From: Paludisphaera mucosa
GTDB lineage: Bacteria; Planctomycetota; Planctomycetia; Isosphaerales; Isosphaeraceae
DNA: 64,000 nt
Assembly: GCF_029589435.1 (NCBI RefSeq)
Contig: NZ_JARRAG010000002.1
Span: forward strand, 3,038,001-3,102,000
Direction: 5' to 3'
A model generated the notes under the pieces. That model was not told where the DNA came from, made no database searches, and was given only the letters and a program-made list of their open reading frames with translations. Below, piece by piece: positions 35,505-45,979 of this stretch (positions are counted from its first letter, which is position 1; each line of letters opens with the position of its first letter). Made by a program: the position numbers and the translations under genes.

Positions 35505-35810
35505 TCAGCCCCGGAACTTGGTCTTGGGGGCGGCTTCGAGGAGGCCGTGCAGGGTGTGCATGATGTTGTAGGCCGTCAGCTCGCAGAGGAGTCGGGTGAC
35601 CTGCTCGTGAAGCGCCGGGTCGAGCTCGGGCTCGATCTTCTTCATGAGGGCGACGACGCGCTCCTCCTGGTGCTCGAGCTCGTGCTTCTCGATCTTGCCG
35701 TCGGCCATGGCGGACATGAAGCCGCCGAGCTTCTCGGCGTATTCGTGGACCAGCGGCGCCTCGCCTTCGTCGTCCAGCCAGGGCGTCCGGTGCTTCTTCG
35801 CGTTCGACAT
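35505..35810 (-). CDS. Small conserved-looking protein of the pspA/AAA operon
   Basis: This 101-residue protein starts MSNAKKHRTPWLDDEGEA at ATG 35810, with GGAGA upstream. It is acidic and helical (VHEYAEKLGGFMSAMADGKI, HELEHQEERVVALMKKIEPE, HEQVTRLLCELTAYNIMHTL) and has no signal peptide or membrane helix. It follows the AAA+ gene by 20 bp and is the last gene of the run. No family is recognised; a small adaptor or regulator of the ATPase is a guess from position. Confidence 0.75.
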   Translation of the reverse strand: MSNAKKHRTPWLDDEGEAPLVHEYAEKLGGFMSAMADGKIEKHELEHQEERVVALMKKIEPELDPALHEQVTRLLCELTAYNIMHTLHGLLEAAPKTKFRG

Positions 35811-35830
35811 CGCGTGTCTCCCCGTTCGGT

Positions 35831-37672
35831 TCATTCTTCGATGACGCGCCGGATGGCGGCCATGCGTTCCTGGAGTTTGGCCCGGGCGTCGGGCTGGTTC
35901 AAGCGGTCCTTCCACTCGGTGGGAAGGAACGACTTCGACGTGCACTCGAGCACCGCCGCCAGCTCCTGCTTCTCCTTCTCGAGCCCCTGGGCGGAGGGCA
36001 CGAAATCGTCGAGCGCGTGCGCGAGGTCGTCGGCCGTCGCCTGCTCGCGGCTCTGGGTGAGGGCCAGCCGCTTGGCCGACAGGACGATGCTCTCGATGTC
36101 GGCCCCGCTGAAGCCGTGCTTCGAGAGGCCCTCGGGCAGCAACGCGGGGTCGAGGCGGAACTTGTTCTTGCGCGCCATGGCGAGGAACATGGTGCGCACC
36201 TCCTCGTCGTCGGGCGGGTTGAACAGCGGAAGGTGGACCTCGGCGCGGCCCTGGCGTTTCAGGTCGATCGGCAGCAGGTCGGGCCGGCTGGTGAGCAGCA
36301 TCCAGATGAGCTTGCCGCGATAGCGGGTGTCGCCCATCTGGCTGGCGATCATCGAGAAGACGCGGCTGGACGTCCCCGAGTCGCCGCCCCCTTCGCGGTT
36401 GCCGAGCGCGGCGTCGGCCTCGTCGATGACGACGACGACCGGCCCCATCGCGCGGAGGACGTTCAGGAGCTGTTCCAGGTTCCCCTCGGTCTCGCCGACG
36501 TACTTCGAGCGGAAGTTGCGGAGTTTGACGCAGGGGACGCCCACCGATCCCGCGAAGCACTCGGCCAGGTAGGTCTTGCCGGTCCCCACGGGGCCGCAGA
36601 TCAGATAGCCCATCGGCGCGGCGTCGAGCCGGCCCTTCGCCAGGAGCTTCGCGTCCTCGATGAGGCGTTGCTTGACCCCTTCGTTGCCGACGAAGTCGTC
36701 CATCGTCGTGGGGGGCTCGACGAACTCGACCAGGCCGCGGGCCTGGCGCTCGATGAGGCCTTTTTTGAGCTTCTTGAGGCTGTCGGCGTCGAGCTTGACG
36801 TGGGCGCGCTCGGCGAGCACCAGCAGCCGTTCCAGGCTGACCAGGTTCAACCCGCTGGTGAGGTCGGCGAGCTGCTCGGGCGTGAAGTCGGTCAGGTTCC
36901 CGAGCTTGCCGTCGCGGCCGTCGAACCACTCGGCGAAGGCCTTGCGCTGGACGACGTCGGGCATCGGCACGGCGAGCGCCGAGACGTGGGGGCTGCCGAC
37001 CAGCCGCTCGTTGACCTCGCTGAGCTGATCGGACAGCAGGCAGAAGGACATGTTGTTGCGCTTGATGTACGGGTTCTGCGCCCAGGAGAGCAGCCGAACC
37101 AGGCGCGACCCCAGCGGCCCGGAGAGCTGGGCCAGGTCGCTCGACGGCGCCAGATACTGCGCGTGGTCGAAGACGACGGCGATGCTCAGCCGCTTGGCGG
37201 GGTCGGTCTCCATCAGGTTGGACTGGATCAGGCGGTCGAGCAGGTCGAGGATCGCGTCCGGGTCGCGGGGCCAGGCCTTGGGCTCGCCGATCCGCTCGGA
37301 GAGGCGTGAGACCATCTTGCGCAGGCGGTCGCCGTCGCTGCCGGCGAAGACGCGGAGGCCGTGGCTGAGGTCGTGACGCAGGACGACGTCCCAGTTGCCG
37401 AAGAGTTGGGACGTCAGGAAATCGGCGACGCTGCCGTAGGTCACGGGCGGGTCGTCGGACTGGCGGACCAGGTCGTGGACGTTGCCGTGGAGGACGAACA
37501 GGCAGCTCGCGCCGGCGTAGAACTGCTCGGCGAAGTCGCGGGCCCAGCCCGGGAACCAGGCCGGGACCGCCGCGGACTTCTCGACGTTCAGCAAGGCCGG
37601 CGCGACGGCCTCGACGGCCGATGGATCGATGCTCACGGAATCACCACGCCCCGTTAGGGTCTCGGTCTCCAA
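35831..37672 (-). CDS. AAA+ ATPase with degenerate N-terminal AAA module
   Basis: This 613-residue cytoplasmic ATPase has a complete C-terminal AAA domain: Walker A GPVGTGKT (360-367), Walker B VVVVIDEAD (412-420), sensor-1 region LIWMLLTSRPDLLP, Arg-finger region KRQGRAEV and sensor-2 GFSGADIESIV. Residues about 40-310 look like a second, inactive AAA module: CLFVLHGNVHDLV lacks the P-loop, and SIAVVFDHAQYL sits at the Walker B position. This layout recalls the Ycf46-type ATPases of cyanobacteria. It follows pspA by 27 bp and so may remodel PspA assemblies, as Vps4 does for ESCRT-III (inference). The start is a TTG at 37672; a GTG at 37636 is possible. Confidence 0.85.
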   Translation of the reverse strand: METETLTGRGDSVSIDPSAVEAVAPALLNVEKSAAVPAWFPGWARDFAEQFYAGASCLFVLHGNVHDLVRQSDDPPVTYGSVADFLTSQLFGNWDVVLRHDLSHGLRVFAGSDGDRLRKMVSRLSERIGEPKAWPRDPDAILDLLDRLIQSNLMETDPAKRLSIAVVFDHAQYLAPSSDLAQLSGPLGSRLVRLLSWAQNPYIKRNNMSFCLLSDQLSEVNERLVGSPHVSALAVPMPDVVQRKAFAEWFDGRDGKLGNLTDFTPEQLADLTSGLNLVSLERLLVLAERAHVKLDADSLKKLKKGLIERQARGLVEFVEPPTTMDDFVGNEGVKQRLIEDAKLLAKGRLDAAPMGYLICGPVGTGKTYLAECFAGSVGVPCVKLRNFRSKYVGETEGNLEQLLNVLRAMGPVVVVIDEADAALGNREGGGDSGTSSRVFSMIASQMGDTRYRGKLIWMLLTSRPDLLPIDLKRQGRAEVHLPLFNPPDDEEVRTMFLAMARKNKFRLDPALLPEGLSKHGFSGADIESIVLSAKRLALTQSREQATADDLAHALDDFVPSAQGLEKEKQELAAVLECTSKSFLPTEWKDRLNQPDARAKLQERMAAIRRVIEE

Positions 37673-37699
37673 GGTCCCGTCGCCCGACCGCCGTACGAG

Positions 37700-38464
37700 T
37701 CAGGGAAGCTCGGGGAGCGGTTCGAGTTGCTTGGTCCGCGCGGGGCCGAGCTGCTTGTCGGCCGGTCCCGCGCCGACGGTCTCGGGCGTCGCCAGCCCCT
37801 GCTCCTTCTCGAAGTCCTTGAGCGCGTCCTCGGCGAGGTTCTTCTCGATGGCCATCTCGCGCTTGATGTCCTCGACGCCCTCGCCCGAGAGGTCGGCGGC
37901 CACGCGGACCCGGCCCCGGTTGCGGTCGATCTGGTCCTGGATGACCTGCTCGGCCTGGCCGAAATCGGTCGTGACGTTGAAGTTGAACTGGGTCGCGATC
38001 TGCGACAGCTCGGCCTCGGCCCGGCTCATCTTGAGGTCGGCGTCGTACTTGGTGATCTTGTGCTTGACGCTCTCGAGCTTCTCGACCGCGTTCTTGATCT
38101 TCAGCAGGTTGTTCTGATACGCCTGCTCGTGGAGCTGGAGCTGCTTCTCGTTCTCGGCCATGTCCTCCTTGGCGCGGCGGAGGTCGAGGGCGAACTTGGC
38201 GGCCCCTTCGCGGTCGCCGGCGTTGAGGAAGGCCTTGACCTTGGCCTCGAGCGTGGAGACCACCTTGGTCTGGTTGTCGACCTGCCTCTGAACCCGCTCG
38301 ACCAGCGCGCGATACTGGGCCAGGCCCTCGCGGCCTTCCTTCAGCTGCGCGACGGAGCGGTCGTACTCGAGCTGCATCTCGGCGATCGGGTCGTACCCCC
38401 GGATCGCGTTGGCGAGCTTGTTGAACTGGGCGGAGATGGCGTTCCAGAGTTTCCCGAGGATCAT
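37700..38464 (-). CDS. pspA: PspA/IM30 family membrane-stress protein
   Basis: This 254-residue protein is mostly coiled coil, as in PspA/Vipp1, the bacterial ESCRT-III-like membrane-repair proteins. It begins MILGKLWNAISAQFNKLANA. The N-terminal amphipathic helix 0 is less clear than in E. coli. The hairpin helices include EYDRSVAQLKEGREGLAQY and VKAFLNAGDREGAAKFALDL, the latter typical of the family. The tail after residue 205 is extended and ends in a Pro/Ala-rich stretch. The gene lies between the TPM/coiled-coil gene (119 bp upstream) and the AAA+ gene. No pspF or other psp genes are nearby. Confidence 0.88.
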   Translation of the reverse strand: MILGKLWNAISAQFNKLANAIRGYDPIAEMQLEYDRSVAQLKEGREGLAQYRALVERVQRQVDNQTKVVSTLEAKVKAFLNAGDREGAAKFALDLRRAKEDMAENEKQLQLHEQAYQNNLLKIKNAVEKLESVKHKITKYDADLKMSRAEAELSQIATQFNFNVTTDFGQAEQVIQDQIDRNRGRVRVAADLSGEGVEDIKREMAIEKNLAEDALKDFEKEQGLATPETVGAGPADKQLGPARTKQLEPLPELP

Positions 38465-38498
38465 GGCGTCACCCGTGCTGAGACATGATGCGATAGGG

Positions 38499-38509
38499 TA
38501 CGTGACGTA
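38499..38509. promoter_or_regulatory. Perfect odd palindrome upstream of pspA
   Basis: TACGT-G-ACGTA is an exact 5-1-5 inverted repeat 34 bp before the pspA start, in the only gap longer than 30 bp inside this operon. A TAAGAT on the minus strand (38517-38512), a weak -10, lies next to it. Position and symmetry fit an operator for a dimeric regulator; no regulator is known. Confidence 0.35.
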
Positions 38510-38583
38510 ACATCTTAGATCAGGCGGACCGGACACGCCACGAGCCCGCGGCCGGCGGCGCGAGGTTCCTCGCGGCCGGGCGA

Positions 38584-41436
38584 TCACCAGGTCGATTCGC
38601 TGGCCTCGGTCGACCATGAGCTGGAGGAGGCGTCCGACTCCACGGCGTCCGCGACCGGCTGCTCCCGGTCGTCGGGCTCGCCGGCCATGGCGGCCCCTCC
38701 CATCATGGCCCCGGCCGCACCTATTGCAGCTCCCATGCCGAAATTCTGCATCGCGACCGACCGCCGCCGCTGCTCGGCCGCGATCTGCATCTGGCGGACG
38801 TACGCCTGCTGGACGGCGGACTGATGGGCCTGGCGGACCTGCTGGATCGACGAACCGGCCGCGCGTATGGCTTGCTCGTATTCCTGCGAATGATAGAGCC
38901 CCTGGGCCTGGTCGAGCGACGATTCGGCCGGCGACGTGTCGAGCGCGACCCCCATCGAGAGGTAAGTGCGGCCTTCGCGGAGCGTCCTCACGGCCTCGGA
39001 GATCTCGGACTCGGCCTGGCGGGCGAGCCGGACGTCCTCGTGGGCCAGGCGCTCGGAATGCTCCAGGTCGCTCTTGGCCCCGCGAACCTGGTCGAGCAGC
39101 ATCGGCCACTCGTTGCCGACGCGGGTGCTGTCGTTGCCGACCAGGTCCAGGACCTCCTGTGCGTGGCGGAAGTGCTGGTTGGCGGCCAGCCGGTCCTCGC
39201 TATGGCCGGCGAGGAACGCCTCCACCCGCGAGGCGAGCTGACGCGCCTGGTCGTACTCGGTGGTCAAGAGCTGATAGACGTCCAGGTCCGACTGGGCCTG
39301 CGACAGCGCGATGCCGTACTCCTCGCGCGCCTCGGCGAGGGCCCGCCGCGCCGAGGGCCAGTCGGGCTGGGACGTGGAGGTCGTTCGGATCGCCTTTTCG
39401 CGAGCCTTCGCAGCGGCCTGCAGGCTCTCGCGGGCCTGGCCGCCGACGACGTGGTCGTACTGGGCGAAGAAGCGTCGGACGTCGCGATCTCGCGTGGCGA
39501 GGTCGTCGGCGAGCCGCTTCGACTCCTCGCGCACGCCCTTCAGCCCGGTGAGCTGCTCGCCCACGGCGTTCATGAGCTGGAAGACGGCCTTCTGCTCCAG
39601 GCCCAGCCGCCCGAGGAGTCGGGCCGCAAGGAGGTACTTCTGCGTCTTGGGGTCGGCGGCCTCCTCGACCTCGTCGGCCTTGCGCTCGAAGGTCTCCAAC
39701 AGCGTCCGGGCCTGATGGAGATTGCCCGAGACCGCCTGCCACGAGGCCGGGGCGAAATCACTCTTCAGCTCCTGCTCGAAGGCCGCGTACTGATTCACGG
39801 CCTCGCGGAGCCGGCGGGTCTCGCGACGGCTCTCGTCGAGCCCGCGCTCGACGAACGCCTTCGCCTTCACCACGGCGTGGAGCACGCCTCTGGCCTGATC
39901 GAGCAGCGTCCGCCCCGCGGCCAATTCCTGGCCGGCCAGGGCGGGGTCGCCCGCCTCGAGCGCCGCCTGCAGGCGGGCCAGGGCCTGTTCGGACTGGGAG
40001 GACGGCGGGTCGGGGTCGCCCCCCTCCTCGGCGAGTCGGAGTCCGCCGCGGCGATGCTCGGCGACTTCGGCCCGCAGCTTGGCGATCGCCTCCTGCACCT
40101 TCTTGCCGTCGCCCAGTCGGGCGACGACGTCGGACGCGCGCAGGACGAGCGCGTCCCCCTCGGCCTTCGTGCGTTCGAGGATCGATTTCGCCCCCAGGGG
40201 GTCGCGCGCCAGGATCGCGGCGGCCTGTCCGGCCTGGGCCTCCAGCCGATCGACCTCGGGCTGGTAGGGGACGGTCGGCAGGCCGGCGGAGTGGACCGCC
40301 TTGACCCGCGCGGCCGCCTGCTCGCGGATCTCGACGACGGCCTGCACCGTCACCCGGGCCTCGTCGTGGGCGGCGTTGAGGCGGTCCATCGTCTGGGCGC
40401 ACGCCTGCGCCCCCTGCTCGACCTCGTCGAACACCTTGGCTTCGGAGACGAGGGCCTCGGCCTCGGCCATCGCCTTCGACCCCTTGGCCCCCTGCTTCTG
40501 GGCCCGGTCGACGACGTCCATGACCTCCAGCCAGCGGTCCCAGAGCCCCTTCAGGTCCTCCTGGGCCTTCTGATAGAGGGCCAGCGTGTCGCCCGTCATC
40601 GGCTCGGTGAAGTCGGGGTCCTCGACGGGGAGCGACTTGAGCCGGGCCTTGAGGCCGTCGAGCCGGTCCATCATGGCGACGGCCTTGCCCTTGTAGTCCT
40701 TCAGCTTGGCGTTGAAGCTTCCGCGGGCCCGCCGCCGGCCCAGCCAGACGAGGCCGGCGATCATCAGGGCGATGGCGGCGAAGGAGCCGGCGAGCGACCA
40801 GGCCAGGTCGCTGCCGGCCGGCCCATGAAGCCGCGTCGGCGGCGCGGACGGCGCCGCGGTCGTCGTCTTGACCTCCCCCGTGCCGGCCACGGGCGCCTGC
40901 GCGGCCTCATGGGCGGTGACGTATTCGTCGACGCCGTTCAACAGGGCGACGAGGGCCCCCGGATAGTCGCCCGCGCGGGCGAGCGGGATGAACCTGGGCT
41001 CGACGATCTCGCGATCGATCACGGCCCCCTTCAGCCCGATCCGGCCCGCGAGCGTCGCCCCGGGCAGCACGCTCACCTGGTGGTTGTCGAGGGCCGTCAC
41101 CACGATCACCGCGCGGTCGAGGTCCAGCTTCTCCCCCCTGGTCGCGGCCTCGCCCCGCCAGGCGTCGCGGAGCCGTTCGGCGAAGGCCCGGGTCGCCGAT
41201 TGCCCCTCGCCCGAGGACTTGACCACGACCACGTAGTACGACTGCGGCGAACGCGACTCCAGCGATCGGATCGCGTCGGCCACCGGCGCGTAACGATCGG
41301 CCGCGCCCTGGACGTACAGGCGCTCGCCCGTGAAGGCGGGCATGGGACTCGCCTCCTCCGCACGGACCGCGCCCACCATGGCGGCGACCCACAGCAGGAA
41401 GAACGGGCGGCGTTTCGCCGCGAAGATCGTGCTCAT
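38584..41436 (-). CDS. TPM-domain membrane protein with long coiled-coil cytoplasmic region
   Basis: This 950-residue protein has a signal peptide (to about residue 26) and a TPM/YgcG-like periplasmic domain (about 35-175; SYYVVVVKSSGEGQSATRAF, DLDRAVIVVTALDNHQVSVL, AGDYPGALVALLNGVDEYV). A transmembrane helix at 211-233 (LAWSLAGSFAAIALMIAGLV) is followed by about 650 residues of charged helical coiled coil facing the cytoplasm. The last 50 residues are a Gly/Ala/Met-rich stretch (FGMGAAIGAAGAMMGGAAMA) and a Ser/Thr tail. It heads the operon with pspA and the AAA+ gene. Its coiled coil on the PspA side of the membrane suggests it links an outside signal to PspA (inference). Confidence 0.85.
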   Translation of the reverse strand: MSTIFAAKRRPFFLLWVAAMVGAVRAEEASPMPAFTGERLYVQGAADRYAPVADAIRSLESRSPQSYYVVVVKSSGEGQSATRAFAERLRDAWRGEAATRGEKLDLDRAVIVVTALDNHQVSVLPGATLAGRIGLKGAVIDREIVEPRFIPLARAGDYPGALVALLNGVDEYVTAHEAAQAPVAGTGEVKTTTAAPSAPPTRLHGPAGSDLAWSLAGSFAAIALMIAGLVWLGRRRARGSFNAKLKDYKGKAVAMMDRLDGLKARLKSLPVEDPDFTEPMTGDTLALYQKAQEDLKGLWDRWLEVMDVVDRAQKQGAKGSKAMAEAEALVSEAKVFDEVEQGAQACAQTMDRLNAAHDEARVTVQAVVEIREQAAARVKAVHSAGLPTVPYQPEVDRLEAQAGQAAAILARDPLGAKSILERTKAEGDALVLRASDVVARLGDGKKVQEAIAKLRAEVAEHRRGGLRLAEEGGDPDPPSSQSEQALARLQAALEAGDPALAGQELAAGRTLLDQARGVLHAVVKAKAFVERGLDESRRETRRLREAVNQYAAFEQELKSDFAPASWQAVSGNLHQARTLLETFERKADEVEEAADPKTQKYLLAARLLGRLGLEQKAVFQLMNAVGEQLTGLKGVREESKRLADDLATRDRDVRRFFAQYDHVVGGQARESLQAAAKAREKAIRTTSTSQPDWPSARRALAEAREEYGIALSQAQSDLDVYQLLTTEYDQARQLASRVEAFLAGHSEDRLAANQHFRHAQEVLDLVGNDSTRVGNEWPMLLDQVRGAKSDLEHSERLAHEDVRLARQAESEISEAVRTLREGRTYLSMGVALDTSPAESSLDQAQGLYHSQEYEQAIRAAGSSIQQVRQAHQSAVQQAYVRQMQIAAEQRRRSVAMQNFGMGAAIGAAGAMMGGAAMAGEPDDREQPVADAVESDASSSSWSTEASESTW

Positions 41437-41806: not shown

Positions 41807-42811
41807 ATGTCGCGTGTTTCTCGAAAAGCCCTGACCTTTTGCATGCTGTTCGCCGCCTCGTCGGTCGCGGCCCGCGCCGACCTGATCAACAACTGGAACC
41901 TTGTGACGACGGGGAATTTCTACTCCCACTCCTCCACCGAGATCGACGGCAACGTCCGCATCGGCGGCGCGATGAGCGTCGACAAGTACAACGTGGGCAT
42001 CCACCTGGGCTCGCCGTACCGTAGCCAGGACACGCTGGTGGTCGGCGGCAGCGTGACGGGCGAGGTCCGGGTGCAGACCGGCAACGCCCAGATCGGCGGC
42101 GCCGGGGCCCAGGTGACGGCGGTCGACGGCACGACCGGCGTCCACACGAACGTCGGCGCGGTCCAGAACATCGGCGTCCAGGACGCGTTGGAGCTGAAGG
42201 CCGATTCGCAGGCCTTCGCGGCGATGGCCACGCTGGCGGCCAATGTGGCGACCCTGCCCTCGGGCCAGCCGAGCGGGGCCCTGTTCACCGTCGCGGCGGT
42301 CGACGCCAACAAGATCGCCGTCTTCAACATCAACGGAGCGGATCTTTTCAGCAGCAAGACGCAGCAGATCGACCTGAAGCTGGCGAACGGCATGACGGAG
42401 TCCTCCGTCGGCACCGTGGTCATCAACGTGACGGGCGCGTCGTTCTCCATGAACAACGGCATGGGCAATTTCGTCGGCTTCTTCACGAGCGATTGGGCCC
42501 GCTCGCACGTCATCTGGAACTTCACGGACGCGACCTCGCTCGACTTCACGAACCACGAGTTCGACGGTGCGATCCTCGCCTACCAGGCCTCGCTCCAGAG
42601 CGGCTCGGCCCCGATCCAGGGCTCGGTCTTCGTCAAGGAATTCCTGGGGCCGAATGGTGTGGGCCAGACCGGTGAGATCCACCTCCCGCTGTTCAAGGGC
42701 TTCGATCCCGCCTCCCATCCCGCGGTCCCCGAACCCGCGAGCGTGACGATGTTGGGCCTCGCCGCGGCGGCCGGCGCCGCATGGCGTCTGAAGCGGCTTC
42801 GCGCGGCCTGA
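41807..42811 (+). CDS. Choice-of-anchor A family protein with PEP-CTERM-like sorting tail (copy 1)
   Basis: This 334-residue exported protein has a signal peptide (KALTFCMLFAASSVAARA), then the family start DLINNWNLVTTGNFYSHSS and EIDGNVRIGGAMSVDKYNVG. A beta-rich choice-of-anchor A domain follows (VIWNFTDATSLDFTNHEFD, GAILAYQASLQSGSAPIQGS, VFVKEF). It ends with a PEP-CTERM-like signal: VPEPASVTMLGLAAAAGA, then basic WRLKRLRAA. Such tails are processed by exosortase and place proteins at the surface or in the biofilm matrix. The frame is open from 41672 but the ATG at 41807, with GGGAG upstream, gives the signal peptide. No exosortase gene is in the window. Confidence 0.88.
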   Translation: MSRVSRKALTFCMLFAASSVAARADLINNWNLVTTGNFYSHSSTEIDGNVRIGGAMSVDKYNVGIHLGSPYRSQDTLVVGGSVTGEVRVQTGNAQIGGAGAQVTAVDGTTGVHTNVGAVQNIGVQDALELKADSQAFAAMATLAANVATLPSGQPSGALFTVAAVDANKIAVFNINGADLFSSKTQQIDLKLANGMTESSVGTVVINVTGASFSMNNGMGNFVGFFTSDWARSHVIWNFTDATSLDFTNHEFDGAILAYQASLQSGSAPIQGSVFVKEFLGPNGVGQTGEIHLPLFKGFDPASHPAVPEPASVTMLGLAAAAGAAWRLKRLRAA

Positions 42812-43152: not shown

Positions 43153-44196
43153 ATGGCGAACTTCGCGAAGCAGCGCTGGTTCTTCTGCGTCCTGGGCCTG
43201 GCGTCGACGGCGCTGCCGGCCCGGGCGGATTTGCTCACGAACTGGAACGTCGTCACCACGGGGGATCTCTACGCCGCCTCCGATGCGCAAGGCCCAGTAC
43301 GGGTCGGCGGGAATCTCTACGTGCAGAACAGCTTCGAGGTCGCGGCGAAACAAGGCTCGCCGACCTCTTCCAACCCGTCGCTGGTCGTCGGCGGAGACGT
43401 GAAAACCAAGCGTAACAATGCCGAGACCGTGAAGGTCCTCCAGGGCGACGCCGTCATCGGCGGCACGATCAACGGGGCGTCCAACGACAAGGCCCGGATC
43501 GTCTCCACGCGCGACGGGGGCGCGGTCAAGATGGACTCGTCCGTGTCCGGCATCGGCGCGGCCGACGCCAAGGAGTTGCAGGCCGACTCGCTCGCCTTTC
43601 ACGCGATGGAGGCGACGAAGCAGGCGATCTACATCCCGACCGCCCAGGTCGACACCGCCGTCTTCACGGTCCTCTCCGTGAACGCCGACGGCAACGCGGT
43701 CTTCAACATCGACGACGCGAAGCTGTTCAACGACTCGAACATACGCGGGTTCGCCCTGGACTTGAACGGCTTCAAGTTCGGCGAGGGGCAGTCGGTCGTA
43801 TTCAACGTCGGCGGTTCCCAGATCGATTTCCACAGCGGCCTGAACTTCGACGGGGCCTTCCGGACGTCGGTCTCCAACATCATCTGGAATTTCTACGACG
43901 CGAAGCAGATCGACCTGAACCGGAACAACTTCGCGGGCGCGTTGCTCGCCTCGGAGGCCGTGCTGACGGACGCCAACGTGATGGCGGGCTCGGTCTTCGT
44001 CGGGTCGTTCGGCACGACTTACGGCAACGGAATGGGGGCAGAGGTGCAAGCGCCGATGTACCTGGGATACGACCCCTCGAATCCGCCCGCGAAGATCGCC
44101 TCGGCGTCGACGCCCGAGCCGTCGAGCCTGGCGATGGCCGGCCTCGCCGTCATGGCGGGCGTGGCGACCCGGGCCCGGCGACGTCGCGCGAGCTGA
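43153..44196 (+). CDS. Choice-of-anchor A family protein with PEP-CTERM-like sorting tail (copy 2)
   Basis: This 347-residue paralogue of the preceding gene has a signal peptide (QRWFFCVLGLASTALPARA), then DLLTNWNVVTTGDLYAASD and VRVGGNLYVQNSF. The beta-rich domain includes VIGGTINGASNDKARIVST and IIWNFYDAKQIDLNRNNFAG, followed by ALLASEAVLT and AGSVFVGSF. The tail TPEPSSLAMAGLAVMAGV, then ATRARRRRAS, is a PEP-CTERM-type signal. Start ATG 43153 has GGAG at 6 nt. Presumably a surface or matrix protein. The two copies share domain order but are well diverged, so the duplication is not recent. Confidence 0.88.
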   Translation: MANFAKQRWFFCVLGLASTALPARADLLTNWNVVTTGDLYAASDAQGPVRVGGNLYVQNSFEVAAKQGSPTSSNPSLVVGGDVKTKRNNAETVKVLQGDAVIGGTINGASNDKARIVSTRDGGAVKMDSSVSGIGAADAKELQADSLAFHAMEATKQAIYIPTAQVDTAVFTVLSVNADGNAVFNIDDAKLFNDSNIRGFALDLNGFKFGEGQSVVFNVGGSQIDFHSGLNFDGAFRTSVSNIIWNFYDAKQIDLNRNNFAGALLASEAVLTDANVMAGSVFVGSFGTTYGNGMGAEVQAPMYLGYDPSNPPAKIASASTPEPSSLAMAGLAVMAGVATRARRRRAS

Positions 44197-44533: not shown

Positions 44534-45979
44534 ATGTCGTTTCGCGGATTATTCCTCGCCGTCGTGCTCAGCACGGCGATGATCGTCGCCGCTTTCATCG
44601 TGCAGGCGAAGCGGCCCCGGATCGAGGTCGCGCGGGCCTCGGCCGACCTTGTCAAGGCCACCGGCAAGTGCGCCGACTGCCATCGCCACGAGACCTCGGC
44701 CGTCGTGCACGAGTACGAGATGAGCCGCCACAGCAAGGCGGGCGTGAACTGCCTCGACTGCCATCAGCCGACGAAGGGCCAGGAGCCCTACGACCACAAG
44801 GGCTTCACGATCACCAAGAAGCTCACCTCGTCCAACTGCCAGGCCTGCCACCAGAAGCAGGTCGACGAGTACATGCGCAGCCGTCACGCCGCCCCCGCCT
44901 GGGCCGCGGTCGCCGGCGCGGGCGACTTCAACGCCGAGCAGATCGCCTTCAGCGAGGGCATCCACAAGGGGGCCGTCGATCGCCCGGCGCATCCGTTGAC
45001 GGCCGTCGAAGGGATGGCGGCGATCAACAAGGGCTGCCGCCAGTGCCACGACATCGGCCGGCCCAACGCCGACGGCTCGATCGGCTCGTGCACCGCCTGC
45101 CACGCGCGTCACGTCGCGTCGGTCGAGCTGGCGCGGCTCCCCGAGACCTGCGGCCAGTGCCACATGGGCCCGGACCACTCGCAACTCGAGATCTACCACG
45201 AGTCGAAGCACGGCGTCCTGTTCAACGCCCAGCGGCCGATCATGAACCTTTCCGCCCGGCCCGAGAAGCTCACCACCGAGGACATGCCCGTCCCCACGTG
45301 CGCGACCTGCCACATGAGCGGGCTGGAGGGGGAGAAGTTCACGCACGACGTCACCGAGCGGCTCTCGTACTTCCTCTTCGCCAGCGTGTCGGACCGCCGG
45401 CCCAAGTTCGAGGAAGGTCGGCGGAACATGAAGGCGATCTGCCTCAAGTGCCACACCAACCCCAAAATCCTCCAGTTCTACGGCGAGGCCGAGGGCGTCG
45501 TCCGTTCGACCAACAAGCTGGTGAAAGACGCCGATAAGATCATCGCCGACCTCCGCAAGGACGGCCTGCTCACCCCCCAGCCGTTCGACGAGCCGATCGA
45601 ATACATCCACTTCGACCTCTGGCACTACGGCGGCCGGACCGCCAAGCACGGGGCCTACATGGGCGGGGCCGACTTCGTCCAGTGGCACGGCTACTACGAG
45701 ATCGTCCAGAAGATGGCCGAGCTGACCAAGTCCGCCGAGGAGATCCGCGCCGCGGGGGCGAAGGTGGGCGAGGCCGCCCCGAAGTCCGCCCGCGCAGCCC
45801 GACGATCGCGGCCGGCCGCTCCCGCGGCCCCGGCCGCGGAGCCGCCGGCCGCGCCGGCCCCGGCCGTCGAACCCACGAAGGTCGACGAGCTTCCCGCGGA
45901 CGTCTTCAAGCCGGAAGACGCGCCGGCCACACCTGACAAGCCGGGAGGCGGGGCCCATGCTTCGCGCGCTGCAGAGTAG
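44534..45979 (+). CDS. Octaheme c-type cytochrome, hydroxylamine-oxidoreductase-like
   Basis: This 481-residue protein has an N-terminal signal/anchor helix (FLAVVLSTAMIVAAFIV) and eight CxxCH haem sites: residues 46, 73, 102, 168, 186, 206, 256 and 303. The count, spacing and distal helices (IEYIHFDLWHYGGRTAKHGA, ADFVQWHGYYEIVQKMAEL) match the HAO-like octaheme family, which oxidises hydroxylamine or hydrazine or reduces nitrite or hydroxylamine. In oxidative enzymes a C-terminal Tyr cross-links to the catalytic haem; candidate Tyr residues (375, 387, 388) exist but cannot be matched by eye. The Ala/Pro-rich tail (about 405-481) is unusual. Its end overlaps the next, membrane-protein gene by 23 bp. 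Confidence 0.9.
   Translation: MSFRGLFLAVVLSTAMIVAAFIVQAKRPRIEVARASADLVKATGKCADCHRHETSAVVHEYEMSRHSKAGVNCLDCHQPTKGQEPYDHKGFTITKKLTSSNCQACHQKQVDEYMRSRHAAPAWAAVAGAGDFNAEQIAFSEGIHKGAVDRPAHPLTAVEGMAAINKGCRQCHDIGRPNADGSIGSCTACHARHVASVELARLPETCGQCHMGPDHSQLEIYHESKHGVLFNAQRPIMNLSARPEKLTTEDMPVPTCATCHMSGLEGEKFTHDVTERLSYFLFASVSDRRPKFEEGRRNMKAICLKCHTNPKILQFYGEAEGVVRSTNKLVKDADKIIADLRKDGLLTPQPFDEPIEYIHFDLWHYGGRTAKHGAYMGGADFVQWHGYYEIVQKMAELTKSAEEIRAAGAKVGEAAPKSARAARRSRPAAPAAPAAEPPAAPAPAVEPTKVDELPADVFKPEDAPATPDKPGGGAHASRAAE

Follow-up and report, generated by a model that had tools for sequence, protein, structure and literature searches.

A PspA–tandem AAA ATPase unit in Paludisphaera mucosa, an apparent bacterial equivalent of the ESCRT machinery

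Four genes on the minus strand of Paludisphaera mucosa (Isosphaeraceae), at positions 35505–41436 of the 64,000-nucleotide stretch analyzed here (hereafter, the window), seem to specify a bacterial equivalent of the endosomal sorting complex required for transport (ESCRT) machinery, consisting of a membrane-bending filament protein, a motor, an anchor in the membrane, and a small helper. The filament protein is PspA. The motor, a tandem AAA ATPase whose first module (D1) is dead and whose second module (D2) is active, is probably able to disassemble the PspA filament. The candidate anchor is a TPM-domain coiled-coil protein (TPM-CC), and the helper is a helical protein of 101 residues. We regard it as fairly probable that these genes form a membrane-maintenance unit in which a dedicated tandem AAA disassembly motor is recruited to a PspA filament by a tail motif, with TPM-CC as the anchor and the small protein as a cofactor. 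Turnover of a membrane-anchored PspA polymer, driven by the tandem AAA, is the best-supported mechanism. The features of the locus are as follows:

38584–41436, minus strand: TPM-CC gene, 950 residues
40924–41280, minus strand: TPM domain of TPM-CC (residues 53–171), Pfam PF04536 TPM_phosphatase, 24.4 bits against a cut-off of 22.1
40738–40806, minus strand: transmembrane (TM) helix of TPM-CC (about residues 211–233), from hydropathy and sequence
37700–38464, minus strand: pspA gene, 254 residues, ESCRT-III superfamily
37742–37756, minus strand: PspA tail motif KQLGP (residues 237–241), of the form K-x-[LMI]-G-P, proposed ATPase docking tag
35831–37636, minus strand: tandem AAA ATPase gene, 601 residues from GTG (613 residues from TTG at 37672)
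36737–37549, minus strand: dead N-terminal AAA module (D1), Walker A absent from all aligned relatives, predicted structure
36572–36595, minus strand: Walker A GPVGTGKT (residues 348–355) of the active second AAA module (D2), glycines and lysine invariant among 24 and 42 aligned relatives
35505–35810, minus strand: small helical protein gene, 101 residues

The genes follow one another closely on a single strand, as the first-pass annotation of this DNA had described, with 119, 63 (or 27), and 20 bases between them. The GTG at 37636 is the likelier start of the ATPase than the TTG at 37672 because close relatives start at the equivalent site. Promoter and terminator searches at the locus gave no signal above chance. 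Of the 20 Isosphaeraceae genomes carrying the TPM protein, 15 retain the order TPM-CC>PspA>AAA, and the arrangement is therefore not a matter of chance. The operon comprises the four described genes only, with neither SPFH nor YdjG among them, and none of the four has an SPFH match. The earlier remark that pspF, pspB, and pspC are missing nearby agrees with our scan, in which none of the eight flanking proteins contains a PspB, PspC, or PspF domain, the rest of the genome not having been searched.

PspA of the window matches PspA_IM30 with 38.9 bits (cut-off 33.9) and is the sole PF04012 protein in the 8.2-Mb genome. Among 392 Planctomycetota genomes, its clade is present in 69 and the N-module of the ATPase likewise in 69; both occur in 66 genomes and each alone in 3. 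Accordingly, PspA and the ATPase are found together in 66 of the 72 genomes with either, and 320 genomes have neither (Fisher p about 1e-67, a value not corrected for phylogeny). Within the 45 Isosphaeraceae genomes, PspA is present in 21, TPM-CC in 20, and the ATPase in 18. The neighbors of PspA sort into a small number of discrete module types instead of varying freely, and the coiled-coil protein does not occur mostly apart from PspA, which is present in all 20 genomes with TPM-CC. Together with the conserved adjacency, the co-occurrence of PspA and the ATPase bears out the earlier view that the genes form a real unit.

The C-terminal tails of PspA proteins are unalignable except for K-x-[LMI]-G-P near the C-terminus. 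In a first set, 51 of the 79 ATPase-adjacent PspAs contain this strict motif, versus a mean of 0.18 and a maximum of 2 after shuffling, while it is present in none of 25 PspAs without the ATPase and nowhere in 16,141 non-tail residues. In an enlarged set of 111 ATPase-linked PspAs, 68 have the strict form and 103 match a relaxed one, for which shuffling gave 6.6 on average and 15 at most; the relaxed form is also found in 13 of 15 representatives at 50% identity. Motif-bearing PspAs come from Planctomycetota, Acidobacteriota, Myxococcota, Verrucomicrobiota, and Riflebacteria; the Myxococcota form, K[TS][ML], constitutes the last residues of PspA. The motif is absent from two genomes without a detectable ATPase, G145 and G102. 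The Isosphaeraceae genus g118 (genomes G139, G423, and G424) possesses both the TPM-CC>PspA>AAA unit, accompanied in G139 by the small gene, and a second operon, PspA>PBP-OmpA>permease>ABC>coiled-coil (where PBP denotes a binding protein), without the AAA ATPase (L275, L277, and L186). Two of the three second-copy PspAs, those of G423 and G424, have no tail motif, and the third, from G139, retains DRLGP. A frameshift was considered as the origin of the loss in G145 and rejected, as the motif is found in no frame after PspA. Judging from these sequence patterns, K-x-[LMI]-G-P is a putative docking tag for the ATPase.

The ATPase shows a Pfam AAA match of 83.5 bits (cut-off 21.2). Its predicted model is a tandem AAA structure with a mean predicted local distance difference test score of 88 and a predicted template modeling score of 0.82, and it superposes on Pex1/Pex6 over 489 residues at 4.8 Å; the root mean square deviations (RMSD) for p97 and Rix7 are larger. 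The loss of the P-loop from the N-terminal module, already pointed out in the first-pass annotation, extends to all aligned relatives (24 sequences), and in relatives across the phylum a motif around F-V-L-H-G-N-V-x-D occupies its position. D1 is proposed to be a substrate- or tail-binding adaptor. D2 retains Walker A, Walker B (DEAD), both arginine-finger arginines of LKRQGR, and the aromatic pore-loop residue (SK[YW]xG or equivalent). The nearest profile is that of the CDC48-type AAA, not Vps4, and the CdvC model scores 47.6 bits against a cut-off of 650. A Pfam scan matched no MIT domain in the ATPase, and no DNA-binding domain was recognized in it. Since the protein is a tandem CDC48/Pex-like AAA with a dead D1 and without a recognized MIT domain, membership of the Vps4 family was ruled out. 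The resemblance to ESCRT-III plus Vps4 that had been suggested gains strength from the nearly perfect co-occurrence and from a conserved tail motif that is missing in several ATPase-less cases, but it does not extend to the family of the ATPase. As a separate observation, AAA relatives in Rhodothermota and Bacteroidota (L130, L133, and L135) have no PspA within the fetched stretch, and repeats of gene family d19 lie downstream of them.

The PspA>ATPase>small core is conserved in several planctomycete lineages, where it is normally followed by a binding-protein/OmpA–ABC-transporter module, and the PspA–ATPase pair extends to Acidobacteriota, Myxococcota, Verrucomicrobiota, and others. Three arrangements were found. 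Isosphaeraceae have TPM-CC>PspA>AAA>small (a). Most other planctomycetes found have PspA>AAA>small>(VWA)>PBP-OmpA>permease>ABC ATPase>two-TM coiled-coil protein or, alternatively, PspA>PBP-OmpA>permease>ABC>coiled-coil>AAA (b); this form is also present in Acidobacteriota and Myxococcota, mostly with other small genes in place of the 101-residue protein gene. Plain PspA>AAA pairs, some of them near SPFH-like genes, make up the third arrangement (c), and in five two-gene loci (L054, L056, L061, L062, and L064) no recognized envelope module directly adjoins the pair. The description of the system as lineage-specific therefore applies to the TPM protein and not to the unit as a whole. In an ATPase tree with a midpoint root, the seven TPM-linked ATPases form one clade (100/100) within the ABC-linked, small-gene-bearing planctomycete sequences; in Isosphaeraceae, the TPM protein apparently replaced the ABC/PBP-OmpA module once. 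No relatives were found in viral contigs. G426 (L268 and L276) is the sole Isosphaeraceae genome with PspA but no TPM-CC; its PspA resembles those of other planctomycete clades and is probably foreign, the assembly being 10% contaminated. An Isosphaeraceae-type TPM-CC/PspA/AAA locus is also present on contig CAMCFM010000055.1 (L090), whose title, Candidatus Kuenenia stuttgartiensis, seems to be a mislabel or the result of mis-binning.

TPM-CC consists of a signal peptide, a periplasmic TPM domain, one TM helix, and about 650–700 residues of cytoplasmic coiled-coil/spectrin-like helices, in line with the TPM-like domain, single helix, and coiled coil of about 650 residues described earlier. The orthologue at L183 likewise exceeds the Pfam TPM cut-off. 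The C-terminal part is assigned to the cytoplasm because RRRAR directly follows the TM helix. Compared with PDB sequences, the TPM domain showed a weak match to a TPM protein only (7tbr, E 0.086). Homology to EzrA was rejected (29.8 bits against a cut-off of 39.6, and 36.3 in an orthologue), the similarity probably reflecting shared helical repeats, as was homology to the small two-TM coiled-coil protein (c6) that TPM-CC seemingly replaced (hhalign 6%, coiled-coil level). A second protein with a single TM helix, encoded outside the window and devoid of a TPM domain, contains the conserved post-TM region of TPM-CC (residues ~223–424, 36% identity; L200:3313-4368, G000 C2). This protein is present in one copy per genome throughout the genus and also in g118, and the G139 copy adjoins response-regulator-like genes (L201).

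The 101-residue protein represents a new conserved family found next to the ATPase or next to PspA. It is matched by no Pfam family and no PDB entry. An MIT-like fold was detected neither by Foldseek at E ≤ 0.001 nor by VIA-align at Z ≥ 2, null results that do not exclude such a fold, and the TerB profile is absent among the families listed for 27 members. Homology to the genes that take its place elsewhere (c16, d10, and d14) was rejected, with an hhalign probability below 2%. In G145, assembled as one contig, the ATPase is missing, and TPM-CC, PspA, and the small gene are still adjacent; in G144, the ATPase lies on another contig, and PspA>small remain together. The small gene is thus tied to PspA at least as strongly as to the ATPase. 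In Myxococcota, a TerB-like gene adjoins the PspA–AAA pair, mostly at the position of the small gene (L145:6779-7225, L141, L143, L144, L156, and L157). The one in L145 meets the Pfam cut-off. Between the TerB-like gene and the 101-residue protein gene, sequence similarity is undetectable.

In the mechanism that we propose, PspA would polymerize as an ESCRT-III-type filament on the inner face of the cytoplasmic membrane, and the tandem AAA ATPase would be its dedicated remodeling and disassembly motor. Recruitment would occur through the PspA tail, with K-x-[LMI]-G-P as the functional counterpart of the ESCRT-III MIT-interacting motif (MIM); the dead D1 ring would act both as an adaptor and as a scaffold, and PspA would be threaded by the active D2 ring via its aromatic pore loop. 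TPM-CC may anchor the assembly to the membrane and report from the periplasm, as YdjH anchors PspA of Bacillus subtilis, and the 101-residue protein may be a small cofactor of PspA or of the motor. Different envelope-facing modules seem to connect to the same core machine, since a PBP/OmpA protein, an ABC transporter, and a small two-TM coiled-coil protein hold the place of TPM-CC in other planctomycetes. A function in envelope stress is a plausible prediction. Of these elements, the order of the genes, their co-occurrence, the module swap, the tail motif with its absences, and the dead D1 beside an active D2 are direct observations, and binding between the proteins, disassembly, anchoring, and stress sensing are inferred. 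A stronger version, which we advance tentatively and with chances somewhat short of even, is that K-x-[LMI]-G-P is a bacterial MIM counterpart that the dead D1 ring of a dedicated tandem AAA recognizes, and that the two constitute a true ESCRT-III/Vps4-type disassembly system. This system would span at least five bacterial phyla and would be coupled to envelope-facing modules that can take one another's place (TPM-coiled-coil here and binding-protein/OmpA–ABC elsewhere).

Several observations weigh against the proposed mechanism. The relaxed motif also matches 4 of the 25 control PspAs, and hence the strict motif alone discriminates cleanly. Two subclades of AAA-linked PspAs (L061–L065, L067, and L250–L252; L052, L055, and L243) end differently, in [LI]PE and DRQ[KR]I, beside a divergent form of the ATPase, and the [LI]PE-tail PspAs pair with ATPases having an extra N-module insertion of ~20 residues. 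The draft genomes G165 and G426, both fragmented, retain the motif, and no ATPase was detected in them. The motif contrast is also partly phylogenetic because most of the ATPase-less control PspAs come from other clades; only about four of the absences are independent of PspA clade, and those in G423 and G424, which belong to one genus, may be a single event. Finally, serving the ATPase cannot be the only role of the small gene and TPM-CC, as both persist with PspA in the ATPase-less G145.

Ravi et al. (2024), to whose main text our statements on that work refer, propose a chaperone-like assembly of membrane complexes for PspA–AAA–TPM associations (PMC11237479), and the ATPase is indeed found with ABC/PBP-OmpA genes across phyla. 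The ATPase could then be an assembly or quality-control chaperone for an envelope-facing complex (TPM or ABC/PBP-OmpA), with PspA as a membrane platform and not the substrate. Yet PspA and the ATPase remain paired when the envelope module switches from ABC to TPM, the five two-gene PspA>AAA loci have no adjoining recognized envelope module, and the second PspA–ABC operons of G423 and G424 lack the ATPase, which makes this explanation unlikely. Less likely still is that the tail motif docks something else, such as a housekeeping chaperone or protease or a membrane lipid, and that the linkage to the ATPase is regulatory, controlling stress signaling instead of filament turnover. Escherichia coli PspA regulates the AAA+ protein PspF in this manner (discussed in PMC8281802), and the two motif-bearing drafts without a detected ATPase would fit such a role; however, the ATPase here is a classic AAA protein with a D2 pore loop and no recognized DNA-binding domain, and the motif is missing from G145, G102, and the two ATPase-less second copies. 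Linkage inside one genus can persist through descent alone, but a loose grouping of membrane genes with separate functions, held together only in this way, is very improbable, given that linkage and co-occurrence persist across phyla and through module swaps and that absence is shared as well in the 320 genomes with neither gene.

Beyond the start of the TPM-CC gene, the window encodes a tandem pair of ice-binding-like adhesive proteins that carry PEP-CTERM signals (41843–42811 and 43153–44196) and whose transcription is directed away from TPM-CC. A multihaem cytochrome (44564–45979) lies beyond these two genes.

Compared with known systems, the locus differs from the classical Psp response (pspF/pspABC), as neither the regulator PspF nor PspB and PspC are encoded among the flanking proteins scanned. 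In B. subtilis, the pspA-ydjGHI operon encodes the TPM domain protein YdjH and the SPFH protein YdjI (PMC8581546), and YdjH interacts with PspA by two-hybrid analysis and is required for PspA membrane foci (PMC8581546). Both loci encode a TPM membrane protein next to PspA, here with a TM helix and a long coiled coil. However, the locus of P. mucosa contains no SPFH or YdjG gene, its TPM-CC has a cytoplasmic helical part of ~700 residues, and an AAA motor is added.

The closest precedent was given by Ravi et al., who reported that PspA occurs "occasionally" with an inactive-N tandem AAA in some clades (examples AEY64321.1 and OGG56892.1), that long operons add an ABC ATPase, a permease, and a PBPB-OmpA protein, and that TPM–PspA pairs exist, together with an ESCRT-like interpretation (PMC11237479). 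As in that system, pspA of the window adjoins a tandem AAA with a dead first module, and the same ABC/PBP-OmpA partners are present in other planctomycetes; unlike it, a TPM-TM-coiled-coil protein replaces the ABC/PBP-OmpA module. The 101-residue family, the tail motif with its absences, and the genome-wide co-occurrence were not found in the main text of that paper, supplement aside (PMC11237479). A literature search, likewise apart from supplements, turned up no earlier account of the combination of these elements, of this family, of the tail motif, of co-occurrence as near-obligate, or of the exchange of a transporter for TPM. Relative to that main text, an association reported as occasional is near-obligate here for a defined PspA clade. 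The exchange suggests that the TPM and PBP-OmpA proteins share a role, namely, envelope-side input to the same machine or its anchoring.

In having two stacked AAA modules, the ATPase is similar to Pex1/Pex6, p97, and Rix7. The D1 of Pex1/Pex6 is also inactive. Unlike these proteins, the ATPase is bacterial, its partner is PspA, and only ~30 residues precede D1, too few for a p97-type N-domain. With the ESCRT-III/Vps4 systems of eukaryotes and archaea, the locus shares an ATPase of the classic AAA type and a polymer of the ESCRT-III superfamily whose subunit bears a short motif in its C-terminal tail. Vps4-family ATPases have an N-terminal MIT domain and a single AAA module, but the ATPase here has a tandem architecture in which D1 is dead, has no recognized MIT domain, and is closest in sequence to the CDC48-type AAA. 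To our knowledge, the PspA tail motif is unlike known MIMs. PspA belongs to the ESCRT-III superfamily (PMC8281802), and Vps4, as is well established, threads ESCRT-III subunits (PMC11746142). PspA and Vipp1 are recognized bacterial ESCRT-III proteins for which a Vps4-like ATPase has been stated as an open question (PMC8281802; discussed in PMC11746142). This motor question is now directly testable because the motor-paired PspAs share a tail motif in at least five phyla; the motif is a probable handle, and the genomes in which both it and the ATPase are missing help reduce the question to a simple binding and disassembly assay.

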